From Chitinophagaceae bacterium DXS (GTDB lineage Bacteria > Bacteroidota > Bacteroidia > Chitinophagales > Chitinophagaceae), in the NCBI GenBank assembly GCA_030345135.1, contig CP128386.1, positions 775,129 to 839,128 on the forward strand: 64,000 nucleotides of DNA, written 5' to 3'. The notes beneath the pieces are model-generated. The model searched no databases and had not been told where the DNA came from. It saw nothing but the letters and a program-made list of their open reading frames with translations. Shown here piece after piece: positions 4,036 to 60,247 of this stretch. Position numbers and translations under genes: made by a program. Position 1 is the first letter of the stretch. Each line of letters starts with the position of its first letter.

Positions 4036-4070
4036 GCCAGGTACTTCGTACTTCGTAACTCGTACTTGAC
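4036..4070 (-). repeat. A-type heptad repeat before fecR
   Basis: Degenerate 7-nt tandem repeat (GTACTTC units on this strand). A near-identical stretch of about 35 bp lies 50 kb away at 54777-54812. It ends 3 nt before a GTG that extends the fecR frame, which argues that the GTG is not the true start. Its orientation, reverse complement of the post-stop form, is the one seen before start codons throughout the window. Confidence 0.85.
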
Positions 4071-15514: not shown

Positions 15515-15546
15515 AGATTTGAGATTTGAAATTTGAGATTTGAACT
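15515..15546 (+). repeat. I-type heptad repeat (GATTTGA units) after GH75
   Basis: Four heptads of GATTTGA or AATTTGA start one base after the GH75 stop codon, in gene sense. Confidence 0.8.
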
Positions 15547-16268
15547 TCCAGGTCGTTGCGCCGCCGCTTCTTTGCGTTCTCCGCGTGAAATAATGAAATG
15601 CCATGTCTTGCGCCGTTGCCTCTTTGCGCGCTTTGCGTGAAACCCAATTCGGGTAGGCTTCGTTTGCAGTCGTTCTTAATCAAACAGTATTTGATTTGAA
15701 TTTCGAGGTCGCTGCGTCGCCGCTTCTTTGCGTTCGCCGCGTGAAACAATGAAATGCCATGTCTTGCGCCGTTGCCTCTTTGCGCGCTTTGCGTGAAACC
15801 CAATTCGGGTAGGCTTTGTTTGCAGTCGTTCTTAATCGAATAGTATTTGATTTGCACTTCCAGGTCGCTGCGTCGCCGCTTCTTTGCGTTCGCCGCGTGA
15901 AACAATGAAATGTAATGTCTTTGCGCCGTTGCTTCTTTGCGCGCTTTGCGTGAAACCCAATTCGGCCAGGCTTCGTTTGCAGTCGTTCTCAATTAAGCAG
16001 TATTTGATTTGCACTTCCAGGTCGTTGCGCCGCCGCTTCTTTGCGTTCGCCGCGTGAAACAATAAAATGCCATGTCTTTGTGCCGTTGCCTCTTTTCGCG
16101 CTTTGCGTGAGACCCAATTCGGGTAGGCTTCGTTTGCAGTCGTTCTTAATCAAATAATATTTGATTTGCACTTCCAGGTCGTTGCGCCGCCGCTTCTTTG
16201 CGTTCGCCGCGTGAAACAATAAAATGTAATGTCTTTGCGCCGTTGCTTCTTTGCGCGCTTTGCGTGAA
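15541..16268. repeat. Tandem array of a 156-157 bp unit, about 4.6 copies
   Basis: The recognisable anchor GGTCGTTGCGCCGCCGCTTC or its close variants begins at 15551, 15707, 15863, 16020 and 16177, giving periods of 156, 156, 157 and 157 bp. Each unit contains two related half-blocks (CTTTGCGTTCGCCGCGTGAA and CTTTGCGCGCTTTGCGTGAA) joined by a spacer, so the array is also internally repetitive. Copies differ by substitutions and single indels. Open frames on the minus strand arise because 156 is divisible by 3; they shift frame at the 157-bp junctions, so I do not call them coding. Confidence 0.93.
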
Positions 16269-16322
16269 GCCCTCCCGCGGAAAAAAACAATACCTGCCTG
16301 AAGCAGCCTTCTGCATTTTTTG

Positions 16323-16500: not shown

Positions 16501-17166
16501 CTATAAAACCATTATGCGCTCAACCGTCCAATAGGCGGCGATCATCGCGATAATTACTGAAAGCGGGTAAACAATTCTTTTCCTGTAAAAATATTTTTTC
16601 CCAAAAGGCAGGATGATCAGTCCGAAAACAAGTAGTATTACGATGATCTGCCCTGCTTCCACCCCAAGGTTAAATGATAGTACTGAAGTAAAAAATTGAT
16701 TGCGCGGCAACCCTACACCGTTAAGTGCGCTCGCAAACCCCATCCCGTGTATTAATCCAAACATAAATACGACAAGTATGCGCCAGGCCTTTAATTCATT
16801 CAATACAATATTTTCTATCGCCACAAAAACAATGGATAAAGAAATGACAGGTTCTACAACAGCTCCCGGCGCCACCAGTATATTCTTCATGCTCAGTGCA
16901 AGGGTAACGGAGTGCGCCACTGTGAAAGCTGTTGCCTGCCAAAAGATGGTCCTGATCTTGTTGCTGAGCAGGCAAAGGCTGATAATAAACAAAATGTGAT
17001 CAAATCCTTCCGGAATAATATGTGTAACGCCCATTCTGAAATAATAACCAATCACCTCATGTGCCGGCGCTTTCTCCATTGCATAGTTTATAATGGTGTG
17101 GCCCCACACTGCACTGGCAATACAGACGGCGATCAGGAGGAGTACTATGTGTTTGGTTCCAGGCAT
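16501..17166 (-). CDS. HupE/UreJ-family membrane protein
   Basis: Polytopic inner-membrane protein of 221 aa with about six or seven hydrophobic segments. HupE/UreJ-family motifs are visible: GVTHIIPEGFDHILFI, TAFTVAHSVTLALS and FGLIHGMGFASAL, whose conserved His and Asp suggest metal binding; the family includes nickel/cobalt permease-like and hydrogenase/urease accessory proteins. No hydrogenase or urease gene is nearby, so its role here is open. The start codon ATG lies inside a C-type heptad repeat (CTGATACC units in gene sense). It is preceded on the same strand by the TPR gene 114 bp upstream. Confidence 0.85.
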   Translation of the reverse strand: MPGTKHIVLLLIAVCIASAVWGHTIINYAMEKAPAHEVIGYYFRMGVTHIIPEGFDHILFIISLCLLSNKIRTIFWQATAFTVAHSVTLALSMKNILVAPGAVVEPVISLSIVFVAIENIVLNELKAWRILVVFMFGLIHGMGFASALNGVGLPRNQFFTSVLSFNLGVEAGQIIVILLVFGLIILPFGKKYFYRKRIVYPLSVIIAMIAAYWTVERIMVL

Positions 17167-17288
17167 CAGGTATCAGGTATCAGGTGTAAGGTATTAGGTT
17201 TGAGGCATCAGCTGCGATGACACATTCGCACATTTGCACATTTGCACATTCGCACATTTCCATTGTCAACTTTCAATTTTCAATTATT
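17167..17288. repeat. C-, E- and I-type heptad/octad repeats between TPR and hupE-like genes
   Basis: Read along the minus strand the order is: I units (ATTGAAA) that include the TPR stop codon, E octads (AATGTGCA, about five), then reverse-complement C units (CTGATAC) running into the hupE-like start codon. This is the general arrangement: sense words after a stop, reverse-complement words before a start. Confidence 0.9.
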
Positions 17289-22608: not shown

Positions 22609-22620
22609 GATATAAATGGG

Positions 22621-22706
22621 CGAATGTGCGTATGTGCAAATGATTTCCATAAGTGAATTTAATGGGGTTGGAACTGGCGGTGAATAGCTGACAGCTTATA
22701 GCTTAT
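22621..22706 (+). repeat. E- and B-type repeats between the basic-protein and helicase genes
   Basis: E units (AATGTGC, sense) at 22623-22642 follow the stop of the preceding gene. Reverse-complement B units (AGCTTAT) at 22682-22706 precede the helicase and run directly into its -7 promoter element. Confidence 0.7.
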
Positions 22707-22739: not shown

Positions 22740-23981
22740 ATGAAATTTGAGCAGTATAACATTTCCCCGGAAATAAAAAGAAGTCTTTCAGAATTAGGTT
22801 TTAAAAGGCCTACAGATATTCAGTTTAAAGCAATTCCCTCCATTTTAAAAGGTGATGATGTGCTTGCAGTTGCTCAGACAGGAACCGGGAAAACTGCCGC
22901 TTTTGCTATTCCTGTCCTGGATATTCTTCAACAGCAAAAAAAACGCTTTAAAGCAGACAAACACGTCAGATGCCTTGTAATGGTGCCGACACGTGAGCTC
23001 GCGATACAGATTTCAGACGTGTTTAAGCAGGTTGGTAAACATACAAAAGTGAGCATTCTTGGGTTGTATGGTGGGGTTGAGCAGGAACCTCAAATCAAAA
23101 AGCTTGAAAAAGGCGTTGATGTTTTGATAGCTACTCCGGGAAGAATGTTTGACCTGGTTAATCAAAAACACCTGGATCTAAGCGGGGTTGATATCCTGAT
23201 TTTGGATGAAGCAGATCATATGCTTGATCTTGGCTTTATAAAAGACATCCGCGATGTGATCAGGTTTCTTCCTAAAAATCACCAGACCTTATTTTTTTCT
23301 GCTACGATAGATAAAACGATCAAAGATCTCGCCTATTCGGTGTTGAATACGCGTAATCCCATACGCATCCAGATCTCCCCGCAGGATCCTGTTTCAAAAA
23401 ATGTAACACATTCGGTTGCGTTCGTTGAAATGGATGACAAGCGTTTTTTTCTTGAGCGACTGATAAAAGAATATCCGGAAAATAAAATATTGGTATTCGT
23501 TCGTACGAAAGTGCGTGCGGAACGCGTGTTTAATGCTATGCAGCGTGTTGGTATTCAAACCCTAACAATGCACGGCGGAAAGGAGCAGGATGACAGGCTT
23601 ACAGTAATGGATAAATTTAAAGATGGCAATGTAAAAGTATTGATTACAACAGACGTTAATGCAAGGGGAATAGATATTCCCAACGTTGAATATGTTGTGA
23701 ACTACGATTTGCCGGACGAGCCTGAAAACTATGTTCACCGTGTGGGACGCACCGGTCGTGGCGTTCAGAAGGGAAGAGCAGTATCTTTTTGCAGCCCTGA
23801 GGAAAAACCTGTGCTTGACAAGATCCAAAAATACCTGGGCAAGGAAATCACTGAAATGAAAATTGATAAGGCTGATTACCGCGAAACGCTTGCCTTTACG
23901 GAAGATACGCCTAACGACAACTGGCGTTTGCTTTTGGAGCAGGAGGAGAAAAGTAAGTTGAAGAAGAGGAAGAAGAAGTAG
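22740..23981 (+). CDS. DEAD-box ATP-dependent RNA helicase (RhlE-like)
   Basis: 413-aa RNA helicase with all core motifs: Q motif FKRPTDIQ (21-28), Walker A AQTGTGKT (45-52), PTREL (83-87), DEAD (156-159), SAT (187-189), ARGIDIP (308-314) and HRVGRTGR (333-340). A short basic tail, KSKLKKRKKK, ends the protein and resembles RNA-binding tails of RhlE-type enzymes, which remodel rRNA or mRNA, often in the cold. The start is supported by a perfect -7 element 28 bp upstream. Confidence 0.95.
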   Translation: MKFEQYNISPEIKRSLSELGFKRPTDIQFKAIPSILKGDDVLAVAQTGTGKTAAFAIPVLDILQQQKKRFKADKHVRCLVMVPTRELAIQISDVFKQVGKHTKVSILGLYGGVEQEPQIKKLEKGVDVLIATPGRMFDLVNQKHLDLSGVDILILDEADHMLDLGFIKDIRDVIRFLPKNHQTLFFSATIDKTIKDLAYSVLNTRNPIRIQISPQDPVSKNVTHSVAFVEMDDKRFFLERLIKEYPENKILVFVRTKVRAERVFNAMQRVGIQTLTMHGGKEQDDRLTVMDKFKDGNVKVLITTDVNARGIDIPNVEYVVNYDLPDEPENYVHRVGRTGRGVQKGRAVSFCSPEEKPVLDKIQKYLGKEITEMKIDKADYRETLAFTEDTPNDNWRLLLEQEEKSKLKKRKKK

Positions 23982-23983
23982 TT

Positions 23984-24045
23984 TTAAGCTTAAAGCCTAA
24001 AGCCTAAAGCTTAGAACTGGTTGTAAGTTATACGTTATACGTTTA
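23984..24045 (+). repeat. K-type heptad repeats after the helicase
   Basis: TAAAGCC heptads (three copies) and then GTTATAC heptads (two) start within about five bases of the helicase stop codon, in gene sense. Confidence 0.75.
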
Positions 24046-24116: not shown

Positions 24117-24170
24117 AAAAGTCCAAAGTTTATTGCCCTTGCTTTAAACTTTGGACTTTCTGTTTTTTCG
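24117..24170. terminator. Bidirectional intrinsic terminator between convergent genes
   Basis: Perfect inverted repeat AAGTCCAAAGTTTA / TAAACTTTGGACTT (24119-24132 and 24145-24158) with a 12-nt loop, an A-run before it and T-runs after it. It can stop transcription from both the helicase side and the giant PQQ/T9SS gene side. Confidence 0.85.
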
Positions 24171-24173
24171 GTT

Positions 24174-24212
24174 TTAGGCTTTACCCCTTACACCTCATGC
24201 CTCACACCTTAC
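24174..24212 (-). repeat. C-type heptad repeat containing the stop codon of the giant T9SS gene
   Basis: Read along the minus strand: the stop TAA is followed directly by GGTGTGA and GGCATGA heptads. The repeat begins within the last codon. Confidence 0.8.
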
Positions 24213-27200
24213 TCCTTTATAAATATCTCTGTCTTAAATCCTGTCTTGCTCTTGACTGAAACTGCATATGATCCGGATGGCAATTGCAGGTTGCTGAATT
24301 TCTTGTGATAGTGGCCGCTGAAATTACTTAAGCTTTCCGTATAGTAAGTACGGCCATCGGCAATGCCAACAATTCTTAATGTCATATCCTGTTTGTCGGC
24401 AACACTAAAATCAACAGTAATAATGTTGCTGGTTGGATTAGGATATACTTTCAAAGCTGTTGGCGCTGCGACATCCGCTGTTGCGTTATTGACGGCTCTT
24501 GCTGAATCGGTTGCCGCTATACGGGCACTGGTTTTATTGATGATGATCTTTGATTTGTCGAACACCGCGGTTGTCTGTTTTGTGCTGTTATGACTATTCA
24601 CTGCAAACCCAACATAAACACTTTTTCCATTCAAGCCCATTCCAGGCAAGTAGATTGGCCTTATAAGAAGTGACCATGTAACACTGTCCGGTGAAATATA
24701 AGCACTGTAAGTATCTCCTTTTTTAACTATGCGCAGATAATAAGGCGCTTTTATGCCACTCACATATTTAACGGATGTGGATGCGCCGTTTTCGGCCCTG
24801 TATTGATAAAATGCACCCATTCCGCTGGTGACTCCTATAAAAAAGTTTCTTGACTCCGGTGCAAGAGATTCTCTGAACATAAGGCCGGCCTCGTTACCTG
24901 CATTGACTTTGTCCTGGGATGCAACTCTTGTATCAATTTGGCCGTCGCCGGCAAATGGCCTGTAAACGTAGCGGAAGTTGTCGGCAAATTTAATGGCATC
25001 GTCTCCTGAGCCTGTTACTTTGTAGCTGTCTTTAGACTTGATGAAGCATACTGATCCAGCCTGAGCAACATTGCCAATATCCAGCGTGTTTATACCATAC
25101 ATTAAAGGAGAGCAGGTAGTATCAACCGGTGGCATTATAATAGTATCTTTTGGCACCAGGCTGAACTCATTAAATATAACTGTTGACGTTTTTGAATTGT
25201 TGTGGCTGGTTACTGCCAGGCCTGCATAGATCGGATAATCACCGCCGCCAAAGTTGGGTATTTTAATTGATCCAAGCTGTGTCCAGTTTATACTGTCCTT
25301 TGAAATATATGCTGTGTAGGTTGTATTTTCTTTTGCAAGGGCCAGGTAGCATGGTGCCTTAAAGCCCGGTATAAGAGCGTTTGTGCTGGTAGCTCTTGTA
25401 ACATATCTGTACTGGAACGTAACACCGCTGCCACTTGTAATGCCAACAAACGCAAAGCGTGAGGTTGCATCCAGTGATTCCCTGAACATAATGCCTGCTT
25501 TATTCAAAAGATCTGCATCATCCTGGCTGGTTACTTTTACAACCAACCTGGTGCTTCCGCTGACCGTTTTGTATGCATACCTGAATGCGTCACCGTTATT
25601 TCCTATATCGACACCCGATCCTTTAATAGTAAATGATGTTTTAGGCGCGTCGTAACAGGCTTGTCCGCCTATCGCAATATCGCCAATATCATTTGTGTAG
25701 AACCTGGTTGGTAAAAGTCCGCAATCTGTGCATGTCAGTGTATTGAAGCTGGCTTCTTCCGAGTAGCTGCTTACGCCGGTTTTGGCACAGCTTGATTGAA
25801 CCCTGTAGCTGTAGTAGTTGCCACATGTTAATCCGGTGATCACCAACGAATCACTTTTGGTTGTGAAGGTTTGCCATTTGGAGCTGGACTGCGGTTTAAT
25901 CTGCACATAGTAAGAAGGTGAGTTGGTATAGTTCCACCGGATGGTAGCTCCCGTGGCAGTGATATGGTTCACCGTTACCCCGTTTGGCGTAATGCATCCC
26001 TGTATAGGGTTCCCGAATACTTTCATTTCAAGAACAGAATATCCGCCGGCAGTAGCTTTTGCTGTGCAATACAAGCGGACATACCGGCCAAGTGTCAATG
26101 CATCAAAACTATTATTTTGCGTGTTGTTGTTGGTAACAGTTGCAATGGATTTCCATGAAGCGGCATCATTAGATACCTGCACCTGGAAGTCTTTAGCGTA
26201 ACTGGCGTTCCAGTTAATGGTTACATTACATATCGAATCAATCTCTCCCAGATCTACATAAAGCCACTCTGGCGTACTATTGTTTGCACTGGCCCATCTT
26301 GTTGTATTATTTCCATCAAAAGCCAGCCCGGGTAATAAGGTTGTGTTTTCATTTGAGGATGAATAAGCCGGCTTAGCAAGTGCCACGTTTGTACTGGAGT
26401 TGCACACGGGCTTTTGTGGAGTAGTATCAATAATGCCATACACGTTAAGTTGATTGCTGAAAGTAGCAAGGTAAACTTTTCCGTTAGCAATAGTGGGAGA
26501 GGAGAATTTAGCATAAAAACCAACCCCATCGCGATTAGCGTTTTGATTGGAATTCCAGAGCTCATTTGTTACATCATTGGCGTCAAATGCACGCAGAATG
26601 CCCGGTCTTAAAGATTGGTTGGCGTCGCCGTTAGCCGAATAGCTTGTCCATACTATGCCGCTTCCGTCTTTTGAGTTGTTGGACGATGTGCTTATCATAG
26701 CGCCATTTGCCCCGACAGGGCCTTGCGGACTGGCGGAGACAACATTGTCAACATCCAGCGTATTGCTTGTTCTATCGAAAGGATAAGCTTTAAGCTGCGA
26801 GTTTTCGCTCCACACATAAACAAATTCGTTTGTGCTGCTTTTGTAGTAAGATGGCTGGCACCTCATTGTAGCGTTATTTCCTAAAATGATCGTCTGCGCC
26901 ACATTGTTATAAGTGCTGTTAAAACCACCGAGATTATCAGTGTTTAGTACATATAGATTACCGTCTTTACAGCCGGTAACATATCTTTTGGCCCCGGGAA
27001 TAAGAAAGGCTGCCATACTACCGTAATCAAGGTCGGCCATTTCAAGTGTTATGAAGTTTTTTGGTGTAAAAAAGCTTGTTACAGCCAGCGTGTTGTTGGT
27101 TGGTTTGAGCTTGATGGCACTTTCTCCTCTATTTGAAAGGTCATTCACATCTTTGTTGGTACCAACAGCGCCGTTACCCGTAACCAGGTACATAAATCCT

Positions 27201-31007: not shown

Positions 31008-31273
31008 GAGCTATCAGCTGTCAGCTATTAGCTATCAGCCGCGGGGGGCAGGTTTCAGGTTTCAGGTTTCAGGTATAAGGCATGAGGCATGAGGTATGAG
31101 GTGTACGGTAATGGCCTAAGGAATAACTCAAAGAGAATATGATTTGAGAATATCGTATCGGGAGTGTGAGTACCCACATCGTACACCGTACACCGTACAC
31201 CGTACATCACTTCACATCGTATATTTTTCTCAGACAGTTCATTTCGTACTTCTTACCTCGTACTTCGTACTTG
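31008..31273. repeat. Intergenic block of B, C, D and A heptad repeats between convergent genes
   Basis: After the plus-strand stop: B units (AGCTATC, about four), then C units in clean heptads (TTTCAGG x3, TATAAGG, CATGAGG x2, TATGAGG). From the minus-strand stop: A units (AGTACGA) start two bases after it, followed by D units (GTACGGT x3). Each half is in the sense of its own gene. Nearly all the spacer is repeat. Confidence 0.92.
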
Positions 31274-40879: not shown

Positions 40880-41045
40880 GTGATGTTAGATGCCCGCCCG
40901 TACCGACGGCACGTTCGGGCGGGTACGGTGTACGATGTGAGGTGTCAGGTATCAGGTGTGAGGTTTTAAAGTACGAATTACGAAGTACGAAGTACGTTGG
41001 GTGCAGCACGTTAAGAGAATGTAAGATGTACGGTTCTAGGTTATG
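40880..41045 (+). repeat. D, C and A heptad repeat block including a GC-rich palindrome
   Basis: On the plus strand: a GC-rich inverted segment (GCCCGCCCG ... CGGGCGGG, about 40890-40925), D units (GTACGGT), C units (AGGTGTC, AGGTATC, AGGTGTG) and A units (AGTACGA). This forms the left arm of an inverted repeat whose right arm is at 41777-41900. Relative to the Bor-like gene it is in pre-start orientation. Confidence 0.88.
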
Positions 41046-41776: not shown

Positions 41777-41900
41777 TAACGTACTTCGTACCTCGTAATT
41801 CGTACTTGGCCACATTCATCAGGATCGTGCCCACGTCGTACACCGTACCCGCCCGAACGTGCCGTCGGTACGTTCGGGCGGGCATCTAACACCGTACATT
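41777..41900 (-). repeat. A and D heptad repeat block with GC-rich palindrome, right arm
   Basis: In minus-strand sense from the citrate synthase stop: GTACGGT, the same GC-rich palindrome as at 40890, D units and then A units (AGTACGA). The order of modules equals that of 40880-41045 inverted, giving imperfect inverted arms of about 120-150 bp around the VOC gene. Confidence 0.88.
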
Positions 41901-43588: not shown

Positions 43589-44680
43589 TTATTTAGGTGC
43601 TTTGCGGTAGAAATAATAAGCTACAAACGAAAATATTATGTTGGGAAGCCATGCTGCAATAAGCGGAGGAAAGTTTCCTTTTACCGAAAACATACTTGAA
43701 AAACGGTCGGTAATAATAAATGCAGCAGCAGTAAGAAAGCCCAAAGCCAGGTGCGCGCCGCTGCCTCCACGCACTTTACGCGCGGCCAGAACGGCTCCTA
43801 TTATGGTAAGGATGATCACCGCGACAGGCGTTGCATCTCTGCGGTACTTTTCTATTTTCAATGCGTTGATCGTCTCAGAACCTCGCAATTCTTCCAGTTG
43901 AATAAAGCGGTTTAGCTGAGGTGAAGTCATTTTATCTTTAGTGAACTCATCCTGGCTAAGGTCAAACGGAATGAAATTAAAACGCATGTGTGTATCGGGA
44001 GTAATGCCTACTGTTTCTTTAAGTCCGTTTACCGTGCGCTGAAAAACATTTCTCATTTCCCAGCTTCTCTTTGCAGTATCCCACATGATCCTTTCTGCAC
44101 GCAGGTTGTAGACTAACTGATTGCCCTTAATACGGTATAACGAAGCTGGCCCGCCCGTTTTCCCTGCCGTATCATAATAATGAATGCTCGCGTAGGTAAA
44201 AGAATCAAGCCTGAAATATTTATTCACCTGCTTTTGAAGCAAAGGATTATAACTTGAATTGGCATTAACATAATTAGTTTCAAAATATGTTCTCTTTACT
44301 TCAGCACGCGGAATAACATACTGGTTCGCGAACCACAATATTGTTGCAAGAAAAATTCCGCCGAGCCAGTAAGGAACAAGAAACCTTTTGAAACTGGTTC
44401 CGCTGGCCAGAATTGCGATCACCTCGCTTTTGCCTGCCATTTTAGAGGTAAAGAAAATCACCGCAATAAACACGAACAAAGGAAACAGCAGTGCAATGAT
44501 ATGCGGTATAAATGCGAGAAAGTAGTCGGTAACAATCTTATAAAAACTCCATCCGCTTTTTACAAAGTCATCAGTTTTTTCACTGGTGTCAATCACCACT
44601 GAAATAATGGTAAACAGGAATATCGAAAAGAAGAAAGTGGTTAAAAATTTCTTTAGTATGTACCAGTCTAATTTCTTCAT
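43589..44680 (-). CDS. LptF/LptG-family lipopolysaccharide export permease
   Basis: 363 aa. Membrane segments near residues 15-35, 55-80 and 100-120 flank the first half, then a periplasmic beta-jellyroll domain, then three C-terminal TM segments (PVAVIILTIIGAVLAARKV, GSGAHLALGFLTAAAFIITD, LPNIIFSFVAYYF). With LptB ATPase and a partner permease it would extract LPS from the inner membrane toward the outer membrane. The start begins MKKLDWYILKKFLTTFFF, typical of the family. Whether it is F or G is not decidable here. Confidence 0.92.
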   Translation of the reverse strand: MKKLDWYILKKFLTTFFFSIFLFTIISVVIDTSEKTDDFVKSGWSFYKIVTDYFLAFIPHIIALLFPLFVFIAVIFFTSKMAGKSEVIAILASGTSFKRFLVPYWLGGIFLATILWFANQYVIPRAEVKRTYFETNYVNANSSYNPLLQKQVNKYFRLDSFTYASIHYYDTAGKTGGPASLYRIKGNQLVYNLRAERIMWDTAKRSWEMRNVFQRTVNGLKETVGITPDTHMRFNFIPFDLSQDEFTKDKMTSPQLNRFIQLEELRGSETINALKIEKYRRDATPVAVIILTIIGAVLAARKVRGGSGAHLALGFLTAAAFIITDRFSSMFSVKGNFPPLIAAWLPNIIFSFVAYYFYRKAPK

Positions 44681-44706
44681 TTAGTGGATGCTCGTTTGTC
44701 AATGGA

Positions 44707-44714
44707 CAAAAGTA
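44707..44714 (-). promoter_or_regulatory. -7 element of the lptF/G gene
   Basis: TACTTTTG in minus-strand sense, a perfect TAnnTTTG, 26 nt before the start codon. No clear -33 box. Confidence 0.55.
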
Positions 44715-44741
44715 ATGGAAAACTTGTTGCGGAGGTGTGAA

Positions 44742-44882
44742 ATAGCTGTCAGCTTTTAGCTATCAGCTATCAGCTTGGGGTGTCAGGTATCAGGTATCAG
44801 GTTTCAGGCATAAGGTGTAAGGTGTAAGGTGTTAGGTATAAGGTGTTAGGTATAAGATATAAGGGCGTAAGGTATAAGGTGC
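44742..44882. repeat. B and C heptad repeats before lptF/G
   Basis: Plus-strand B units (AGCTATC, four) at 44742-44775 followed by C units (AGGTATC, AGGTTTC, AGGTGTA, AGGTATA) to about 44880. In the sense of the minus-strand lptF/G gene this is the pre-start (reverse-complement) orientation. About 140 bp of a 298-bp spacer is repeat. Confidence 0.88.
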
Positions 44883-44978
44883 ATTAATCTCTCGTATTAA
44901 ATATTTTCCGCCCAACAGAAAAATCCTGCCAATCTCCTAATCCCATAAATCTTGGTCCAGACAAAATCCCGGTCCTAA

Positions 44979-46138: not shown

Positions 46139-46400
46139 GAAGACCGTAAGATTGTAAGAGCGTAAGACAGTAAGACAGTAAGACCGTAAGACGTGTAAGA
46201 CCGTAAGACAGTAAGAACGTAAGAGAGTAAGAGGGTAATCGTCGTGTTTCGCCTTGTCGTAAGTGGCTTCGTGGTTCAAAACCTTTGTGCTTCTTTCCGT
46301 CTTTGCGACTTTGTGGCAAAAAACGCCGTGTATCGTATTGTCGCGGTGTCTCCGTGGTTCAAAACCTTTCCACTTCCTGTGGAAAATCTTCGCCCAAATC
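46139..46400. repeat. G-type octad repeat and a duplicated spacer block between divergent genes
   Basis: 46139-46238 holds about ten GTAAGACA/GTAAGACC octads (plus strand), which is the pre-start orientation relative to tgt. 46239-46400 holds two imperfect direct copies of a segment of about 100 bp, each ending with CGTGGTTCAAAACCTTT or nearly so. The block separates tgt from the divergent GT2 gene. Confidence 0.85.
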
Positions 46401-48245: not shown

Positions 48246-48434
48246 AAGTCAAAATTCAAAAGTAAAAATTCAAAACTTTAGTTTTGACCTTGTTATCTTT
48301 TTGCGGCTACTGAATGTCGTTAAAAAAATAAGCAACAGTTTGACCTGCGTTTTTGAGTTTTAAATTTTAACCTGTAATAGTTCTCTAAACCTGCCGCACC
48401 TATTTTTTGATTTTTACTTTTGAATTTTGACTTT
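48246..48434. repeat. Inverted I-type repeats bracketing the rsmG-MFS spacer
   Basis: AGTCAAAATTCAAAAG and following bases (48249-48277) are repeated as the reverse complement at 48405-48434, with about 28 matching positions over the two arms. Each arm starts within six bases of its gene's stop codon. Internal heptad units are ATTCAAA and AGTAAAA. Transcripts from either side could form a long hairpin only if both arms were transcribed. Confidence 0.88.
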
Positions 48435-49775: not shown

Positions 49776-50222
49776 ATGGCAAAAGCAACTGCATCCTCAA
49801 AAAAAGAAACAAAGCCCATCAAATACGCAGATAAGTCTGAAGGCCAGCCTGAACTCGTGCCGGTCTTTAATAAACTTGTAGAACTGCTGAGTCCTTACGA
49901 AAAAGGGTCTATCATTAAGGTTGGCGGTAAAGAGGGGCAGATCTCCCTTATCAGTAAAAAAGAAATAGAAGTAGCCGGACGTAAGCGGCCTGAACAGTAT
50001 TTCGCCTCTGCATTGGTGCAAAAAGGTTACGTCGGGTTTTATTTTATGCCTGTTTATTCAGATACTGATATTAAAGAAGTATTTAAACCTGAATTGCTAA
50101 AACTTCTGAAAGGAAAGAGTTGCTTCCACATTAAAAAAGCGGATGAAGAAATCTACAAGCAAATAAAAGATGCTTTGAAGATGGGATATAAGATATATAA
50201 GGATAGGAAGTGGATTGACTGA
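49776..50222 (+). CDS. DUF1801-like small protein
   Basis: 148 aa, soluble and Lys-rich. The core ELVPVFNKLVELLSPYE and YVGFYFMPVYSD ... KLLKGKSCFHIKKADE matches the DUF1801/YdhG-type pattern. The fold is small alpha/beta with no catalytic residues known; function unsettled. Its stop is followed directly by a D-type repeat. Confidence 0.6.
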   Translation: MAKATASSKKETKPIKYADKSEGQPELVPVFNKLVELLSPYEKGSIIKVGGKEGQISLISKKEIEVAGRKRPEQYFASALVQKGYVGFYFMPVYSDTDIKEVFKPELLKLLKGKSCFHIKKADEEIYKQIKDALKMGYKIYKDRKWID

Positions 50223-50498
50223 CGATGTACGATGTTAGATGCCTTCCCGTACCGGCGGCACGCTCGGGCGGGTACGATGTTGGAAGATGTCTGATGTCGG
50301 ATTTTTTGATGTCTGATTTGTTCTGGTGCGGGCTGCGTAACTAAACACTATTAGCTTCAAAATTTAGATAAGTCAGGATCGAATTTTTTATTCTTCCATA
50401 GGCCTCAAACCTCAAACCTCACGCCTAAAGCCTGATACCTGCTCGCTGATAGCCGATAGCTAATAGCTAATAGCTGACAGCTGACCGCTCACAGCTAA
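50223..50498. repeat. D repeat with GC-rich palindrome, then C and B repeats
   Basis: D units and a CCCGTACCGGCGG ... CGGGCGGGTACG palindrome related to that at 40890 begin directly after the DUF1801 stop (50223-50290). 50400-50442 carries C units in reverse complement and 50443-50498 B units (reverse complement, AGCTAATAGCT) in pre-start orientation for the PhyH gene. The intervening bases carry GATGTCT repeats. Most of this 335-bp spacer is repeat. Confidence 0.88.
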
Positions 50499-50557: not shown

Positions 50558-51421
50558 ATGCCTATGTATATTCTTTCTAACGATGAAGTGCAGACATTCC
50601 ACAACGATGGATATGTGATTGTCCGGAATTTATTTTCTGCAGAAGAGATAAATAAATTATATAGTCTGGCCACAGGTGATGATGTTGTAAAAAACAATGC
50701 TTTTGATCTGAATGATCAGACCGGTAAAAAAACAAAACTGACGCTCTGGTTTAAGCCGGGTAACGATTTATATAGTTTACTGATCAGAAGTGAACGCATG
50801 GTGTATTCTGCAGCCAAACTGCTGGACAGTGAAGCACCGGTTTGTCATTTTCATACCAAGCTCATGCAAAAAGAACCGAAAGTCGGAGGCGCATGGGAGT
50901 GGCACCAGGATTATGGTTATTGGTACAAGAACCAATTCCTGTTTCCGGATCAGCTGATAAGCATAATGGTTGCACTTACTGAAGCAAACAAAGAGAATGG
51001 TTGTTTACAGGTGATCAAAGGCTCACATAAACTCGGCCGCGTTAACCATGGATTTGCCGGAGAACAGGTAGGTGCAGATATGGTAATGGTAAATCATTGT
51101 TTAGATACAATGGAACATGTTTATGTAGAACTGCAACCGGGCGATGCATTATTTTTTCACAGCAACCTGTTGCATAGATCCGAAGCGAACTTAAGCGACA
51201 GACCACGATGGTCACTGATCTCCTGTTATAACTCACTCTCAAATCCTGCTTATAATGATGACTCCACAGCCTGGAAAGAACCGGTGCAGGTTGTACCGGA
51301 TGAAATGCTGATGCAGTCAGAAGCCGTGGGAGCAAGCAATGAAGGAGATTTTTTAAGAAAAGAAAATGATCCTGCATTGAAGGAAAGTGGTTGGGAGAAG
51401 GAGGTGGAAACGAAGCTGTGA
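50558..51421 (+). CDS. Phytanoyl-CoA dioxygenase (PhyH) family Fe(II)/2-oxoglutarate oxygenase
   Basis: 287 aa. The Fe ligands are visible: His116 and Asp118 in WHQDYGYWY, and His201 or His206 in FFHSNLLHRSEAN; RPRW about 15 residues on supplies the 2-oxoglutarate-binding Arg. It hydroxylates an unknown substrate; in carbohydrate loci such enzymes often act on modified sugars or sugar acids. ATG 50558 has a second in-frame Met two codons on. The stop lies inside a B-type repeat. Confidence 0.88.
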   Translation: MPMYILSNDEVQTFHNDGYVIVRNLFSAEEINKLYSLATGDDVVKNNAFDLNDQTGKKTKLTLWFKPGNDLYSLLIRSERMVYSAAKLLDSEAPVCHFHTKLMQKEPKVGGAWEWHQDYGYWYKNQFLFPDQLISIMVALTEANKENGCLQVIKGSHKLGRVNHGFAGEQVGADMVMVNHCLDTMEHVYVELQPGDALFFHSNLLHRSEANLSDRPRWSLISCYNSLSNPAYNDDSTAWKEPVQVVPDEMLMQSEAVGASNEGDFLRKENDPALKESGWEKEVETKL

Positions 51422-51594
51422 GCTATTAGCTTTCAGCTATGAGCCTTTGACTTAGTTGCATAGCCATTATAATATTATTCTCTTTAAAATAAAAAGCAAC
51501 CTCGCCTCGCGATCTGTTGCACCAAAGCTAACCTGTTTGAATTATAAGCTAATAGCTGATAGCTAATAGCTGATAGCTAATAGCTGACAGCTAT
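51419..51594. repeat. B-type heptad repeats at both ends of the PhyH-MFS spacer
   Basis: Sense B units overlap the PhyH stop codon (51419-51450). Reverse-complement B units (AGCTAAT, AGCTGAT alternating, about six) fill 51546-51593, ending 14 nt before the MFS start codon. The two arms are complementary over most of their length. Confidence 0.9.
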
Positions 51595-51607
51595 AAAAAC
51601 ACCAATC

Positions 51608-52846: not shown

Positions 52847-52876
52847 GTGAATGGTGAATGGTCAATAGTGAAAGGT
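52847..52876 (+). repeat. H-type heptad repeat after the MFS gene
   Basis: AATGGTG, AATGGTC, AATAGTG, AAAGGTG: clean heptads in gene sense, 12 nt after the stop. A close copy is at 54538-54568. Confidence 0.85.
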
Positions 52877-53278: not shown

Positions 53279-53336
53279 TCATCATCTAACGAAAAAAACA
53301 CGTACAACGTATAACTTATAACTTAAAGACATTGTC

Positions 53337-54537: not shown

Positions 54538-54888
54538 GTGAATGGTGAAAAGTGAATAGTGAAAGGTGGGACAGCTTTTAATTCTTTGAGCAGCTTAATT
54601 GTAGAAAGTACGAAGTACGAATTACGAAGTACTTAGGTTCAGGCGGGTTTATTTTTCTCAATTCCTTTCAACGATTATGAAGATCGAAATTGATAAACTT
54701 GTTAGCACTTAAGTACTTCGTACTTCGTAACTCGTACTTACAGGAATGTGAAGACTGAAAACAGTAAACTTGTTCGAGCCAGGTACTTCGTACTTCGTAA
54801 CTCGTACTTGACCATGGTTCATGTTTAGTTAATAATACACCGGAGCTTGGTGAATAGCTAAAAGCTCATAGCTCATAGCTTACAGCTC
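54538..54888. repeat. Multiple heptad repeats and a duplicated ~70 bp segment
   Basis: In order: H units (54538-54568), sense A units (AGTACGA, 54605-54634), then two direct copies of a ~70-bp segment (about 54670-54740 and 54741-54812), each ending with reverse-complement A units (GTACTTC), and reverse-complement B units at 54852-54888. Sense words are near the preceding stop, reverse-complement words near the following start. Most of the 373-bp spacer is repeat. Confidence 0.9.
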
Positions 54889-54903: not shown

Positions 54904-56616
54904 ATGAAGCAAGCATTGAGAAGCCAGAACTGGTTTGGTAAAAAAGGTAAAGACGGTTTTATATATCGTGCGTGGATGAAAAAGCAAGGCATCCCGGGGC
55001 ATGAATTTGACGGCAGGCCTGTCATAGGCATTTGTAACACCTGGAGCGAATTAACGCCTTGCAACGGACATTTCAGGGAACTGGCGGAATGTGTTAAGCG
55101 CGGCGTGTATGAAGCAGGCGGATTCCCGGTTGAATTTCCGGTAATGTCATTAGGTGAGACGCTGATGAAACCTACGGCAATGCTCTTCCGTAATCTTGTG
55201 AGTATGGATGTGGAAGAATCTATCCGGGGCAATCCTATCGACGGCGTTGTATTGCTATGCGGTTGCGATAAAACTACGCCGGCATTATTGATGGGTGCAT
55301 GCAGTGTTGATATCCCTTCAATTATTGTTTCAGGCGGTCCCATGTTAACTGGTAAGCATCGCGGTCAGAGTATCAGCACCAGTGATATCTGGCGTTTTAG
55401 CGAAGCGGTTCGTTCTGGTAAAATGACCAACGAAGAATTGCTGCTTGCTGAGGCTGGCATGTGTCGTAGCGATGGGCATTGTGCTGTTATGGGTACCGCA
55501 TCTACGATGGCTTGTATGGCTGAATCTTTGGGAATGACATTGCCGGGCAACGCAGCTATTCCTGCTCCTGATGCAGCAAGAAAAGTGCTGGCACATATGT
55601 CAGGAACAGAGATCGTAAAGATGGTAAAAGAAGATCGCAAACCTTCTGATATTCTCACAAGACAGGCATTTGAAAATGCAATCATGGTGAACGCTGCTAT
55701 AGGCGGATCAACCAATTTTGTGATCCATTTGTTGGCGATAGCCGGGAGGGTAGGCATTGATCTTACTTTGGAAGACTTCGATAAATATTCAAAGGATATT
55801 CCACTGATCGCAAATTTGCAACCTTCCGGTCAATACTTTATGGAAGATATGTACTATGCCGGCGGACTTCCTGCTGTGATCAAAGGTCTGCTGGATACAC
55901 TGAACAGTGATGCTGTTACAGTAAATGGAAAAAGTATAAAAGATAACTATGCAGGTTCGGTCAGCTACAATGAAGAAGTTATCTCTGGTGTGGACAAACC
56001 ATTCAATCCAACATCCGGCATCATTGTGCTGAAAGGAAATCTTTGTGAAACAGGCGCTGTTATTAAACCCTCCGCAGCAAGTGAACACCTGATGAAACAC
56101 AAAGGCCGGGCCGTTGTGTTTGACAATATTGAAGATTACAAGGCAAGGGTAGATGATCCTAACCTGGATGTGGATGAAACCTGTGTGATGGTATTAAAGA
56201 ATGTTGGTCCTAAAGGTTATCCCGGTATGCCGGAAGTTGGCAATATGGGATTACCTCAAAAAATACTGGCAAAAGGAGTGAAGGATATGGTCCGCATTTC
56301 CGATGGACGAATGAGTGGCACCGGTTTCGGAACAGTTGTATTGCATGCTACGCCGGAAGCAACGGAAGGCGGCAATTTTGCGCTCGTGCAGAATGGAGAT
56401 ATCATTGAATTAGATGTTCGCGCAAGACTTCTTCAGTTGCATGTTTCCGATGAAGAGTTGGCCGCAAGAAGACAACAATGGAAAGCGCCGGCTCCTCATG
56501 TTGAAAGAGGTTATGTAGGGCAATACATCAAACACGTCGAGCAAGCCAATCAGGGCGCCGATCTTGATTTTCTGAAAGGAAAATCCGGCAGTGAGGTAAC
56601 GCGGGATTCTCATTAA
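54904..56616 (+). CDS. IlvD/Edd-family sugar-acid dehydratase
   Basis: 570 aa Fe-S dehydratase. Cluster Cys ligands are at Cys53 (TPCN), Cys121 (GCDK) and Cys193 (GHCAVMGTASTM), as in the family. In IlvD proper this converts dihydroxy-acids; members next to Gfo/Idh/MocA and SDR genes typically dehydrate aldonic acids (arabonate, xylonate or similar) to 2-keto-3-deoxy acids. No branched-chain biosynthesis gene is adjacent. Substrate not resolved. Confidence 0.9.
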   Translation: MKQALRSQNWFGKKGKDGFIYRAWMKKQGIPGHEFDGRPVIGICNTWSELTPCNGHFRELAECVKRGVYEAGGFPVEFPVMSLGETLMKPTAMLFRNLVSMDVEESIRGNPIDGVVLLCGCDKTTPALLMGACSVDIPSIIVSGGPMLTGKHRGQSISTSDIWRFSEAVRSGKMTNEELLLAEAGMCRSDGHCAVMGTASTMACMAESLGMTLPGNAAIPAPDAARKVLAHMSGTEIVKMVKEDRKPSDILTRQAFENAIMVNAAIGGSTNFVIHLLAIAGRVGIDLTLEDFDKYSKDIPLIANLQPSGQYFMEDMYYAGGLPAVIKGLLDTLNSDAVTVNGKSIKDNYAGSVSYNEEVISGVDKPFNPTSGIIVLKGNLCETGAVIKPSAASEHLMKHKGRAVVFDNIEDYKARVDDPNLDVDETCVMVLKNVGPKGYPGMPEVGNMGLPQKILAKGVKDMVRISDGRMSGTGFGTVVLHATPEATEGGNFALVQNGDIIELDVRARLLQLHVSDEELAARRQQWKAPAPHVERGYVGQYIKHVEQANQGADLDFLKGKSGSEVTRDSH

Positions 56617-56780
56617 GCTATCAGCTATCAGCCATCAGCTATCTGATCAATTTTGATTAGCGTTAAATTATTCAAACGGTCAATACCTGACATCTGATAC
56701 CTGACGCCTGATACTTCATACCTCATTCCTCACCTTTTATTCACTGGGCTGAAAGCTAATAGCTGACAGCTGAAAGCTTA
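56615..56780. repeat. B and C heptad repeats bracketing the dehydratase-SDR spacer
   Basis: Sense B units (AGCTATC) start at the dehydratase stop TAA (56615-56643); reverse-complement C units (CTGATACC-like) fill 56685-56740 and reverse-complement B units 56748-56779, ending 5 nt before the SDR start. Confidence 0.9.
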
Positions 56781-56784
56781 AAAC

Positions 56785-58779: not shown

Positions 58780-59047
58780 CCACGGCGGCACGGCGACAAA
58801 GCGGAACACGGAGTTTATTAATTGAAAATTGAAAGGTGACAATTGAAAATGATTGCCAATAAAAAAGCATGAGCCGTTTTGATGAAGACTCATGCTTTTA
58901 AAAAAATACATTGTTACACAGAGAAAAATACAGAGGATACACAGAATTTCACAGAGCAACGTCTGTTCATTTGCACATTCGCACATTTCCTCATTTGCAC
59001 ATCTGCACATTCCCCATCATTTTCAATTTTCAATTCTCCATTATCAA
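58780..59047. repeat. Mixed low-complexity repeats between iaaA and the next convergent gene
   Basis: CACGGCGACAAAG-type segment (58785-58812), sense I units after iaaA (ATTGAAA, 58819-58851), CACAGAG-type repeats (58915-58960), and on the minus strand E octads (58973-59018) then I units that begin directly at the stop TAA of the 59048-60247 gene. This accounts for nearly all of the 341-bp spacer. Confidence 0.85.
58861..58905 (-). terminator. Intrinsic terminator, mainly for the minus strand
   Basis: AAAAGCATGAG / CTCATGCTTTT stem (11 bp) with a 15-nt loop, A-run on the left giving six T in minus-strand transcripts, and four T plus A-run on the right for plus-strand ones. It would end the gene at 59048-60247. 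Confidence 0.78.
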
Positions 59048-60247
59048 TTACTTCACCTCTACCGGTATAAAGATCAGCGGCGTTGGTAAGCATGAAGCTC
59101 CCGGAGGAGAATAAGTCAGATGTATGGTCTGCTCTTCGCCATTGGCTGCCGGTTTAAAGACCTGTACCAATATCGCCTCAGGTGCTTTTCTTGTAATCAG
59201 TGTATTGGAAGGAAGCTGAATAACACCTTCTTTGAATTTGCCCCCACTAACAACCATTGTATTCGCCATTCCGCTGCACCATTGGTTGTTATCGCTGCGC
59301 GAGTTCCAGGTTACAAGTGCCAGTCCTTTGCCGTCGCTGCTCTTCCATTTAATCTCCATATTATACATTACACCATAGTTACCGTCAAGTCTTGCCACTT
59401 CCGCGGTAGAGCTTTCTTTGCCAAGCACCCAGGGATCTTTGTCGCCGTCGGCCACTATTATTTGAGACACACCATTTTTTGTATCCAGCACAGTGTCATT
59501 AAACAACCTGTAGTTGCTAACGCCAAACACACCTCTGCCAGCGCCGCTGTGCGATTTTGTAGGTATCACAGTTTTGATGCGTTCCATCGCAACGGGAGCA
59601 GGCGTTTTAGGATCAGTTTGTACAATACTGATCTCGCCTGGCTGATCAATCACAAATTCATACAATCCATGAACAAGCTCATCATACTTCACTACAAACT
59701 TTTCCTGGGCCGGGTCAATAGCAACGGCTTCGCCAGCTTTAATCGTGCGGATATTATTGTCTCCTTTAGAAGCAAAATAATCAGCAAGTCCTTGTTTACC
59801 TATCTGGAAATAATTAGCGCTTGGGCGCTGTGAGGAATATTTCAACATGCGCAGGTGCATTGGCGCTTTCCCGGTATTCCTGATCACAGCAGTTATCTTG
59901 CGGTCGATCTTCGCAGGCTCTTTTATTCCGTTTACATTATATACATACAGGCGGACTGTCCCCGGCTGCACAGGCTCTCTGAATGCAATGGCTTCAGGAA
60001 CGCGGATATACTCCGGATCATCGGAGATCAGGAATTGTGGCCCGGGCTGTACTATTTTCTGATAGCTGATCAATGGCAATTTTTCAGTCAGAAATCCCGG
60101 TAGTTCTACAATATGACCCTGAGGAGTATTTAGCAATGTTTTTGTCTGCTCTTCAGTTATTTGTTGTGAGAAAGACGAAAGGCTACAGCTAATAGTGAAG
60201 CCAAGCAAAATTGTCCTGGAGGTTAGTTTCAGGTTAATTCTTTTCAT
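59048..60247 (-). CDS. Secreted protein of unknown function
   Basis: 399 aa with a signal peptide (about 1-28, ISCSLSSFSQ). Beta-rich, with recurring PGTVRLYVYNVNGI, GEISIVQTDPKTP and ILVQVFKPAANGEEQTI segments that look like immunoglobulin-like or copper-oxidase-like sandwich domains. I do not recognise the family and see no catalytic signature. Divergent from nothing; adjacent to the ROK regulator on the same strand (106 bp). May be part of a sugar locus. Confidence 0.5.
   Translation of the reverse strand: MKRINLKLTSRTILLGFTISCSLSSFSQQITEEQTKTLLNTPQGHIVELPGFLTEKLPLISYQKIVQPGPQFLISDDPEYIRVPEAIAFREPVQPGTVRLYVYNVNGIKEPAKIDRKITAVIRNTGKAPMHLRMLKYSSQRPSANYFQIGKQGLADYFASKGDNNIRTIKAGEAVAIDPAQEKFVVKYDELVHGLYEFVIDQPGEISIVQTDPKTPAPVAMERIKTVIPTKSHSGAGRGVFGVSNYRLFNDTVLDTKNGVSQIIVADGDKDPWVLGKESSTAEVARLDGNYGVMYNMEIKWKSSDGKGLALVTWNSRSDNNQWCSGMANTMVVSGGKFKEGVIQLPSNTLITRKAPEAILVQVFKPAANGEEQTIHLTYSPPGASCLPTPLIFIPVEVK

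Follow-up and report, generated by a model that had tools for sequence, protein, structure and literature searches.

The 64,000-nucleotide stretch of the Chitinophagaceae bacterium DXS genome analyzed here (the window; positions 775129-839128 of contig CP128386.1, a single contig of 7,287,640 bases) contains, between a gene at 50558-51421 and the start codon of the next gene at 51608, a spacer with two arrays of tandem, degenerate seven-nucleotide words (heptads) of the type AGCTNTN. One array reads in the sense direction across the stop codon of the first gene, and the other lies as the reverse complement ahead of the second. The product of gene 50558-51421 has its best named protein match in Terrimonas pollutisoli (79% identity, among the best 80 of at least 588 loci). 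A scan of the window with Rfam gave no match above the gathering score, and a typed repeat query against plasmids found no match. Arrays of about ten word families recur at gene edges, and an earlier, sequence-only reading of the window proposed that the words are sense after stop codons and reverse complementary before starts. We find this polarity to be real and stronger than was claimed. It also has a simpler, equivalent form: every word reads outward from the nearest gene, at stops and at starts and whatever the directions of the genes, a spacer having the order >>>…<<<.

The discovery set, one sample from one genome (G000), comprised the window and 60 evenly spaced 20-kb stretches (1.264 Mb in total), and the held-out set comprised 20 fresh stretches (400 kb) that were untouched during pattern definition. 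Genes were taken from our own open reading frame (ORF) scorer rather than a standard caller (913 genes, 81% coding, window included), and their starts are less certain than their stops. Tandem period-7 repeats are the outstanding intergenic feature of this genome: the discovery set holds 254 period-7 arrays, 249 of them intergenic, against 6 to 19 arrays for each of the other periods from 4 to 15 except period 8 (46) and period 14, which is 2x7 (152). The held-out set gave 97 period-7 arrays, 95 of them intergenic, with 0 to 2 arrays at periods 5, 6, 9, 10, and 11 and 14 at period 8. Runs of N form a few rows at every period; they account for 5 of the 346 rows in the period-7 list and were excluded in the held-out set. 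Pattern hits inside genes numbered 12 of 401 in the discovery set and 0 of 179 in the held-out set. Four full heptads per edge array is the commonest number (90 of 251 arrays, with three in 55 and five in 38), and the genome as a whole has 250 copies of the word AGCTATNAGCTATNAGCT but none of its backward reading.

Polarity was scored with ten degenerate patterns, each written as it reads outward: AGCTRTB, AGGTNTN, AAAGCYY, GTTNTAM, GATGTWM, GTSAATR, AAAANTM, ARTTGAM, GARATTT, and KTACGAA. These patterns and their polarity were picked on the discovery set itself, and AGCTNTN and AAAGCNN were narrowed to AGCTRTB and AAAGCYY since the two families overlap in reverse complement. For these counts, an edge array was an array within 40 nucleotides (nt) of a gene edge, its words being read on the plus strand at the left edge of a spacer and on the minus strand at the right edge. 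Of the edge arrays in the discovery set, 177/180 kept the rule (130/132 at stops and 47/48 at starts); with the identical patterns, the held-out set kept it at 58/58 stop edges and 19/19 start edges (77/77). The earlier statement that no copy breaks the rule therefore stands within the window but not in the genome sample, where 3 of 180 edge arrays are reversed. Inspected by eye, these three are a cross-match of two families, an array in a spacer so short (89 nt) that each edge is less than 40 nt away, and an array 33 nt after a stop. The broader patterns used before narrowing gave 136 arrays in and 12 out of line with the rule at stops and 55 in and 5 out at starts, with 30 hits inside genes, and a pattern-free, array-level leave-one-out analysis within 60 nt of an edge classed 205 of 251 arrays as consistent, 14 as violating, and 32 as undetermined. 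Arrays farther than 40 nt from an edge were mixed when scored by their nearest edge (156 in and 53 out in the discovery set, 73 in and 29 out in the held-out set). Among spacers with two or more arrays, at most one switch of orientation was found in 125 of 127 (discovery) and 47 of 49 (held-out), in the order >>>…<<<.

Two simple causes of the polarity were considered and rejected. Stop-codon logic does not account for it, given that no stop is contained in the outward strand of the AGCTATC or KTACGAA consensus and that arrays also stand at two tRNA 3′ ends. Nor does strand composition alone. Of 211 edge arrays, 157 have more G than C on the outward strand, 46 have more C, and 8 are balanced, yet the AGCT family, in whose consensus C outnumbers G, is equally strict, pointing outward in 29/29 arrays of the discovery set and 18/18 of the held-out set.

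At stops, 114 of the 280 arrays have their first nucleotide no more than 10 nt to either side of the stop codon. The stop codon is often shared with the array, TAG being found at 48 of 121 stops with an array within 8 nt, relative to 214 of 875 stops overall. Intrinsic terminators lie beyond these arrays. In spacers of at least 200 nt, a hairpin followed by a T tract was detected downstream of 26 of the 94 array-bearing stops and of 66 of the 264 that lack an array (P = 0.68, Fisher's exact test), and in 150-nt windows the counts were 18 of 116 and 74 of 331, respectively. The median position of the hairpin and T tract was 108 nt with an array, compared with 58.5 nt without (P = 1.6e-4), and the detected T tracts lay beyond the array in 26 of 26 cases, at distances of 22 to 151 nt. 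Since the terminators are both distal and displaced, the array sits between the stop codon and the terminator and is not itself the terminator. A possible exception to this order is a tRNA-Gly gene (in L214), where an AGCTNTN array directly abuts TTTTT.

At starts, we used the -7 box TANNTTTG, whose frequency in the genome sample is highest in the 40 nt next to start codons; this peak suggests that many transcripts are leaderless or have a very short 5′ untranslated region (UTR). The 65 upstream regions that have a start-edge array contain 17 copies of the box. Of these, 11 occupy the gap separating the array from the start, 2 are in the array itself, and 4 are farther upstream, with none in the 60 nt above the array. 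Judged from these 17 boxes only, start-edge arrays tend to lie upstream of the promoter, and the 11 intervening boxes imply that most of these arrays are not parts of 5′ UTRs; the notion of a 5′-UTR element was accordingly rejected, though on just 17 hits in 65 regions.

The arrays are not confined to protein-coding genes. Among 49 listed tRNA 3′ ends, two have an array within 40 nt, at +2 nt (tRNA-Ile, L201) and +4 nt (the tRNA-Gly of L214), implying that translation is not required. Both arrays are outward by eye, although the script gave no call for L201. Seven arrays were nearest to a tRNA edge; one is an N run, and 4 of the 5 with a called orientation obey the rule. Spacer type also matters: among spacers of at least 100 nt, an array was present in 43 of 98 convergent, 136 of 366 codirectional, and 19 of 120 divergent spacers. 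Outward arrays are 2.8-fold more frequent at stops than at starts (130 versus 47 in the discovery set and 58 versus 19 in the held-out set, summing to 188 versus 66), whereas the 3′ and 5′ edges of the discovery set are nearly equal in number (814 and 822). The role in mRNA 3′ ends or transcription boundaries that was first suggested thus holds as an association with boundaries (stops, 2 of 49 tRNA 3′ ends, convergent spacers richest and divergent ones poorest), but the arrays do not appear to form the 3′ ends, given the distal terminators.

Within the 12 seed families, four to six of the seven heptad positions are near-constant (about 85 to 100%) and one to three vary, the usual split being five and two; the AGCT family, for example, reads AGCT, then A64/G20/T14, T97, and C58/T24/G15. 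Neighboring heptads of an array were compared with random heptads of the same family. The difference was less than 0.3 of 7 positions in 11 of the 12 families, with neighbors lower in 7 (for instance, 5.64 versus 5.49, 5.71 versus 5.82, and 5.73 versus 5.79 identical positions); AGGTATC is the exception (5.57 versus 5.12). Near-constant positions in units that are mostly no more alike as neighbors indicate constraint without recent slippage, and recent slippage was therefore rejected as the origin. Dispersal of one master copy with a fixed heptad order was likewise rejected, as the order signal is weak: heptad order is only slightly common to the arrays of some families (GTTATAC, 6.17 versus 6.04 when shuffled; AGCTATC, 5.95 versus 5.84). 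The heptads look like a free assortment of allowed variants under constraint, or like the product of a generator with loose positions.

The same early reading held that codirectional spacers carry complementary arms. The arms of the spacer after stop 51421 are indeed predicted to fold onto each other (-63.5 kcal/mol, z = -7.2), but matched arms are not general among the spacers of G000. Two arms co-occur in codirectional spacers with odds ratios of 20, 7, and 10 in three length classes, and a family is common to both arms in 24 of 66 two-armed spacers (22 of 51 codirectional, 2 of 14 convergent, and 0 of 1 divergent; 11% expected by chance). In G021 and G028, which represent two other genera of the same family, the corresponding counts are 12 of 18 (chance, 12%) and 7 of 17 (chance, 8%), and three divergent spacers of G021 are two-armed, each with one family. 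When same-family arms of one spacer were ranked against random arms of that family, their mean identity percentile was 0.51 in G000 (n = 24); the values for G021 (0.64, n = 10) and G028 (0.61, n = 7) are less clear, indicating only slightly greater likeness. The lack of extra identity between arms makes it unlikely that pairing fixes the polarity.

Dispersed families of tandem heptanucleotides are known from cyanobacteria as short tandemly repeated repetitive (STRR) sequences. Repetitive extragenic palindromic (REP) elements, their bacterial interspersed mosaic element (BIME) assemblies, and bidirectional terminators are also dispersed and intergenic, often forming inverted pairs near 3′ ends, and REPs are palindromic units. 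The G000 elements differ from REP/BIME elements in being tandem heptads, neither palindromic units nor terminators. Among the nearest published parallels are the repeats described by Rehm et al. in 2015, GGGAATC in Xanthomonas and GGGGA(C/T)T in Nostoc sp. PCC 7120 (PMC4692102). According to that paper, most of them are placed in one of two ways, either on the coding strand no more than 50 bp from a stop or on the noncoding strand in the 50 bp upstream of an ORF; they are closer to the 5′ neighboring ORF irrespective of ORF orientation, prefer four units, form convergent inverted pairs, and are depleted between divergent ORFs (PMC4692102). The G000 arrays resemble them in their roughly four tandem heptads, intergenic location (249/254), strand rule (177/180 and 77/77), and scarcity in divergent spacers (19/120, relative to 136/366 codirectional and 43/98 convergent). 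A strand rule of this kind is thus already known for G-rich heptads in Xanthomonas and Nostoc. In contrast, that paper describes one G-rich word type, discussed as G-quadruplex forming, and a preference rather than a near-absolute rule, whereas G000 has about ten non-G-rich families, near-absolute polarity, a single switch per spacer, displaced terminators, arrays at tRNA edges, and fixed and free heptad positions. No GGGNATC doublet occurs in the 1.264 Mb of G000.

The second published comparison is less uniform. MacGregor (2015) described TAACTGA direct repeats in Beggiatoaceae and in some Bacteroidetes and Cyanobacteria (PMC4679880). Reverse-complementing AGTTATC and rotating the result gives TAACTGA, and the arrangement reported for F. 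litoralis, with 12 of 14 sets forward before starts and one seven-copy set reversed after a stop, corresponds to outward AGTTATC, the same polarity as in G000. The 22 intergenic sets mapped in M. aeruginosa (6 facing a start in forward orientation and 8 in reverse, plus 8 located between stops, the last in one chromosomal orientation) do not fit the outward rule, nor do the 13 sets at upstream ORF ends in BOGUAY (PMC4679880). In that paper, these repeats are of one word, lie mostly at starts in BOGUAY, and are suggested to act in translational control. The G000 sample holds 0 TAACTGA and 0 AGTTATC doublets, compared with 26 AGCTATC doublets. For long simple sequence repeats with 7-nt units, polymerase slippage has been proposed (Mrázek et al. 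2007, as cited in PMC4679880), and G000 arrays differ from slippage-made repeats in that their neighboring heptads are mostly no more alike than family-random ones. Among the literature titles listed as matches, none concerned a polarity rule for non-G-rich heptads or heptads in Chitinophagaceae, other literature lying outside that search. What is new here is the near-absolute rule for about ten non-G-rich families, their placement, and their mostly five fixed and two free positions. The feature is very regular and real, and it is related to the published oriented heptad repeats without being explained by them.

The 119 genomes searched include relatives of the same family but none of the same genus. 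For G021 and G028, 44 stretches were used, at least four of them chosen around AGCTATN matches. Among periods 5 to 11, period 7 is the only abundant tandem class in both (55 of 59 arrays intergenic in G021 and 38 of 38 in G028), and the words largely differ from those of G000. Counted by rows, the outward rule holds for ACGGATG in 8 of 9 (G021) and for AAGTGGT in 10 of 10 and AATGGTG in 7 of 7 (G028); a near-palindromic AATAGCT word in G021 does not follow it. At starts, leave-one-out analysis on each genome's own words gave 17:1 in favor of the rule in G021 and 14:5 in G028, and words learned from G000 gave 6:0 and 16:0, with many arrays undetermined. Of ten further relatives, sampled at the start of contig 1 (6 to 20 kb each), one had period-7 arrays (L077), so the feature appears to be patchy. 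Arrays are few in 600 kb of two cyanobacterial plasmids, with 12 rows within 60 nt of an edge; nine have AGTYANN- or CAATTCG-type words, a grouping made post hoc, and all nine are outward by eye. The remaining three consist of different words, and the order is broken by one of them, which lies in an AATTACG spacer of L257. These plasmids give a weak hint of the outward rule. A 25-nt array of a Trichormus plasmid (L235 43048-43143) and an array of the relative G004 (L069 14702-14853) have nearly the same AGTCAGG sequence; although one is cyanobacterial and the other from a Bacteroidete, both precede a start and are oriented alike. At two sites of the Nostoc sp. UHCC 0926 plasmid pn1 (L256 3744-5543 and L257 11418-13236), TTGGATT heptads are followed about 140 to 170 bp on by AATCTAA heptads, in the same plus-strand order at both.

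We tentatively interpret the arrays as oriented "exit marks" of genes, read on the RNA or DNA leaving a gene, a reading that is possible but unproven. About four tandem degenerate heptads, mostly with five fixed and two free positions, would stand at a gene edge with the word strand pointing outward, that is, sense after a 3′ end and antisense before a 5′ end. A putative sequence-specific factor stepping 7 nt at a time may read the fixed positions and act on the RNA, or on a DNA strand of the transcription complex, as it leaves the gene in either direction. Placed ahead of the intrinsic terminator and supplementing it, the array could thereby restrain or process sense read-through beyond the 3′ end and, likewise, antisense transcription that runs beyond the 5′ end. 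Such restraint is suggested by the 2.8-fold excess at 3′ edges and by the order convergent > codirectional > divergent, and the exit-mark reading gains support from G021 and G028, whose different words also read outward, if with more exceptions. It is likewise favored by the polarity and single switch seen in G000, by arrays that precede a displaced terminator at stops, by the two tRNA 3′ ends, and by heptads that show constraint without recent slippage. Proteins with an RNA recognition motif (RRM) were considered as candidate readers. G000 has five, but two of 14 control genomes, those of Synechococcus and Bacteroides, encode RRM as well, and the motif is too widespread in both groups to serve as evidence.

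Several observations weigh against exit marks. Start-edge arrays would need to function on antisense RNA or on DNA; the frequent family match between the two arms of a spacer, well above chance in all three genomes, is not predicted by independent marks; and the positional constraint could stem from how arrays are generated rather than from recognition. At stops, the relatives are less strict, with many arrays undetermined: leave-one-out analysis on their own words gave 24:9 in G021 and 25:12 in G028, and words learned from G000 gave 8:5 and 15:5. The outward rule is therefore looser, or less well measured, in these two genomes than in G000. One AGCT-type array of G019 (L070 10012-10392) points the wrong way, and the dissenting tRNA-edge array of G000, the middle array in the spacer of the L214 tRNA-Gly, adds an extra switch.

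The arrays might instead be dispersed, near-neutral or selfish STRR-like heptads that insert either way, with selection removing the harmful orientation and no dedicated function. Their high copy number, many families, and tandemly amplified blocks (L008 14896-16495 and L011 7631-8438) would fit such an origin, as would the near-identical array in a cyanobacterial plasmid and a relative and the slightly shared heptad order of the GTTATAC and AGCTATC families. However, wrong orientations would have to be lethal both after stops and before starts, given 0 of 77 reversed arrays in the held-out set; neutral decay should strike all seven positions alike, which is not seen; and the > … < order also holds in spacer interiors. 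We regard this origin as somewhat unlikely. A boundary or insulator at the DNA level, in which an oriented DNA-binding or nucleoid protein affects supercoiling or looping or acts as a polar polymerase roadblock independently of RNA, is consistent with a rule that is blind to gene direction and edge type, with the placement of most start-edge arrays that have a -7 box, which leaves them out of the transcript (11 of 17 boxes between array and start), and with the three single-family, two-armed divergent spacers of G021. Divergent spacers are nevertheless the poorest in arrays (19/120, relative to 43/98 for convergent ones), and stop-edge arrays precede the terminator, which places them within transcribed 3′ UTRs, leaving a purely DNA-level role unlikely.

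Pairing of the two arms into an RNA hairpin or a DNA cruciform would explain the fold of the spacer after stop 51421, the co-occurrence of arms in codirectional spacers, and the shared families of 22 of 51 codirectional G000, 12 of 18 G021, and 7 of 17 G028 two-armed spacers. It is weakened in G000, where the arms belong to different families in 29 of the 51 codirectional pairs and in 12 of the 14 convergent ones and where matched arms show no extra identity; moreover, a hairpin is indifferent to which arm carries the word strand, yet the polarity is fixed. Pairing is consequently an improbable explanation. That the arrays are themselves transcription terminators is more doubtful still: although arrays follow stops and that of the L214 tRNA-Gly abuts a T tract, terminator-like sites are about equally frequent with and without arrays and lie beyond them in 26 of 26 cases, and start-edge copies would serve no use. 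G-quadruplexes, in terms of which the GGGAATC repeats have been discussed (as TAACTGA has in terms of translational control; PMC4692102, PMC4679880), are effectively excluded here by sequence. The strand rule and four-unit preference reported for those repeats are the same (PMC4692102), and the outward strand has more G than C not only in G000 (157/211) but also in G021 and G028 (53 of 65 edge arrays in each). Four GGG or CCC runs, however, occur in 0 of 211 edge arrays of G000 (3 of 65 in G021 and 1 of 65 in G028), and the AGCT family, with more C than G, is no less strict. In G000, G-quadruplexes therefore cannot be the basis of either the four-unit preference or the strand rule.

The near-absolute rule across about ten words, together with its match to the strand rule published for other phyla, suggests that the rule belongs to heptad arrays as a class; a similar rule for a G-rich word in other bacteria makes it look general, while the G-quadruplex explanation does not fit G000. 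Bacterial heptad repeats have so far been discussed case by case, in terms of slippage, G-quadruplexes, or translational control, and a class-wide orientation rule makes this old puzzle testable. Outward arrays would also let gene edges be recognized from sequence irrespective of gene direction, which would be useful for annotation. The broader proposal, that "gene exit" marks with a putative reader stepping 7 nt at a time span phyla and include the G-rich Xanthomonas and Nostoc repeats and the TAACTGA repeats, is one we consider quite unlikely.

The arrays of the window are collected in Table 1. Words had been listed within about 12 nt of 17 stops, and by our scoring a period-7 array starts within 12 nt at 15 of these. 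The exceptions are stop 22608, where Tandem Repeats Finder gives only a period-8 array (22615-22642), and stop 41902, whose nearest array is 94 nt away. By eye, 12 window spacers have two or more arrays (11 in the spacer list, with the spacer after stop 50222 counted via the stop check); 11 of them have the order > then <, both arrays are co-oriented in 44596-44978, and none breaks the rule.

Table 1. Heptad arrays in the window, with their strand
Positions	Strand	Word	Location
4041..4064	-	KTACGAA	before start 4073
15515..15543	+	GARATTT	after stop 15514
17160..17205	+	AGGTNTN	spacer interior
17266..17285	-	ARTTGAM	over minus-strand gene's stop 17280
22686..22706	-	AGCTNTN	before start 22740
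23980..24013	+	AAAGCNN	over stop 23981
24020..24043	+	GTTNTAM	
24165..24217	-	mixed AAAGCNN/AGGTNTN	over minus-strand gene's stop 24209
31009..31039	+	AGCTNTN	after stop 31004
31049..31102	+	AGGTNTN	
31176..31206	-	GRTGTAC-type	
31243..31272	-	KTACGAA	at minus-strand gene's stop 31275
40923..40964	+	GATGTAC/AGGTNTN	
40969..40996	+	KTACGAA	
41176..41206	-	AGCTNTN	over minus-strand gene's stop 41205
41780..41807	-	KTACGAA	94 nt from stop 41902
44744..44775	+	AGCTNTN	
44779..44863	+	AGGTNTN	
48246..48275	+	AAAANTM	after stop 48239
48404..48434	-	AAAANTM	over minus-strand gene's stop 48433
50222..50241	+	GATGTAC, short	over stop 50222
50403..50496	-	mixed AGGTNTN/AGCTNTN, long	before start 50558
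51414..51444	+	AGCTNTN	sense, over stop 51419-51421 (PhyH-like gene according to the sequence-only reading)
51547..51592	-	AGCTNTN	reverse complement, before start 51608
52847..52872	+	GTSAATR	after stop 52834
53300..53325	-	GTTNTAM	before start 53337
54538..54563	+	GTSAATR	after stop 54530
54606..54632	+	KTACGAA	
54713..54736	-	KTACGAA	
54783..54806	-	KTACGAA	
54853..54887	-	AGCTNTN	before start 54904
56616..56643	+	AGCTNTN	over stop 56616
56687..56732	-	AGGTNTN	
56748..56782	-	AGCTNTN	before start 56785
58820..58850	+	ARTTGAM	
59019..59050	-	ARTTGAM	over minus-strand gene's stop 59048

Other repeats share the spacers with the heptads. Period-8 arrays form a second intergenic class (46 of 46 intergenic in the discovery set; in the window, for example, at 22615-22642, 46140-46232, and 58968-59011) and are sometimes GAATGTGC-like, directly following ARTTGAM heptads. 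A 157-bp tandem repeat of 4.7 copies lies between two genes at 15537-16272 of the window. Long tandem blocks with units of roughly 100 to 150 bp are found at L008 14896-16495 and at L011 5682-6449 and 7631-8438, each carrying one or two heptad arrays in the same orientation. Finally, L003 8649-9129 and L026 14822-15082 have in common a segment with inverted ends, GTCGTTTCCTTAAGA...TCTTAAGGAAA, and a KTACGAA array inside; flanked by GTGAATA-like heptads at both sites, this segment resembles a small mobile element.

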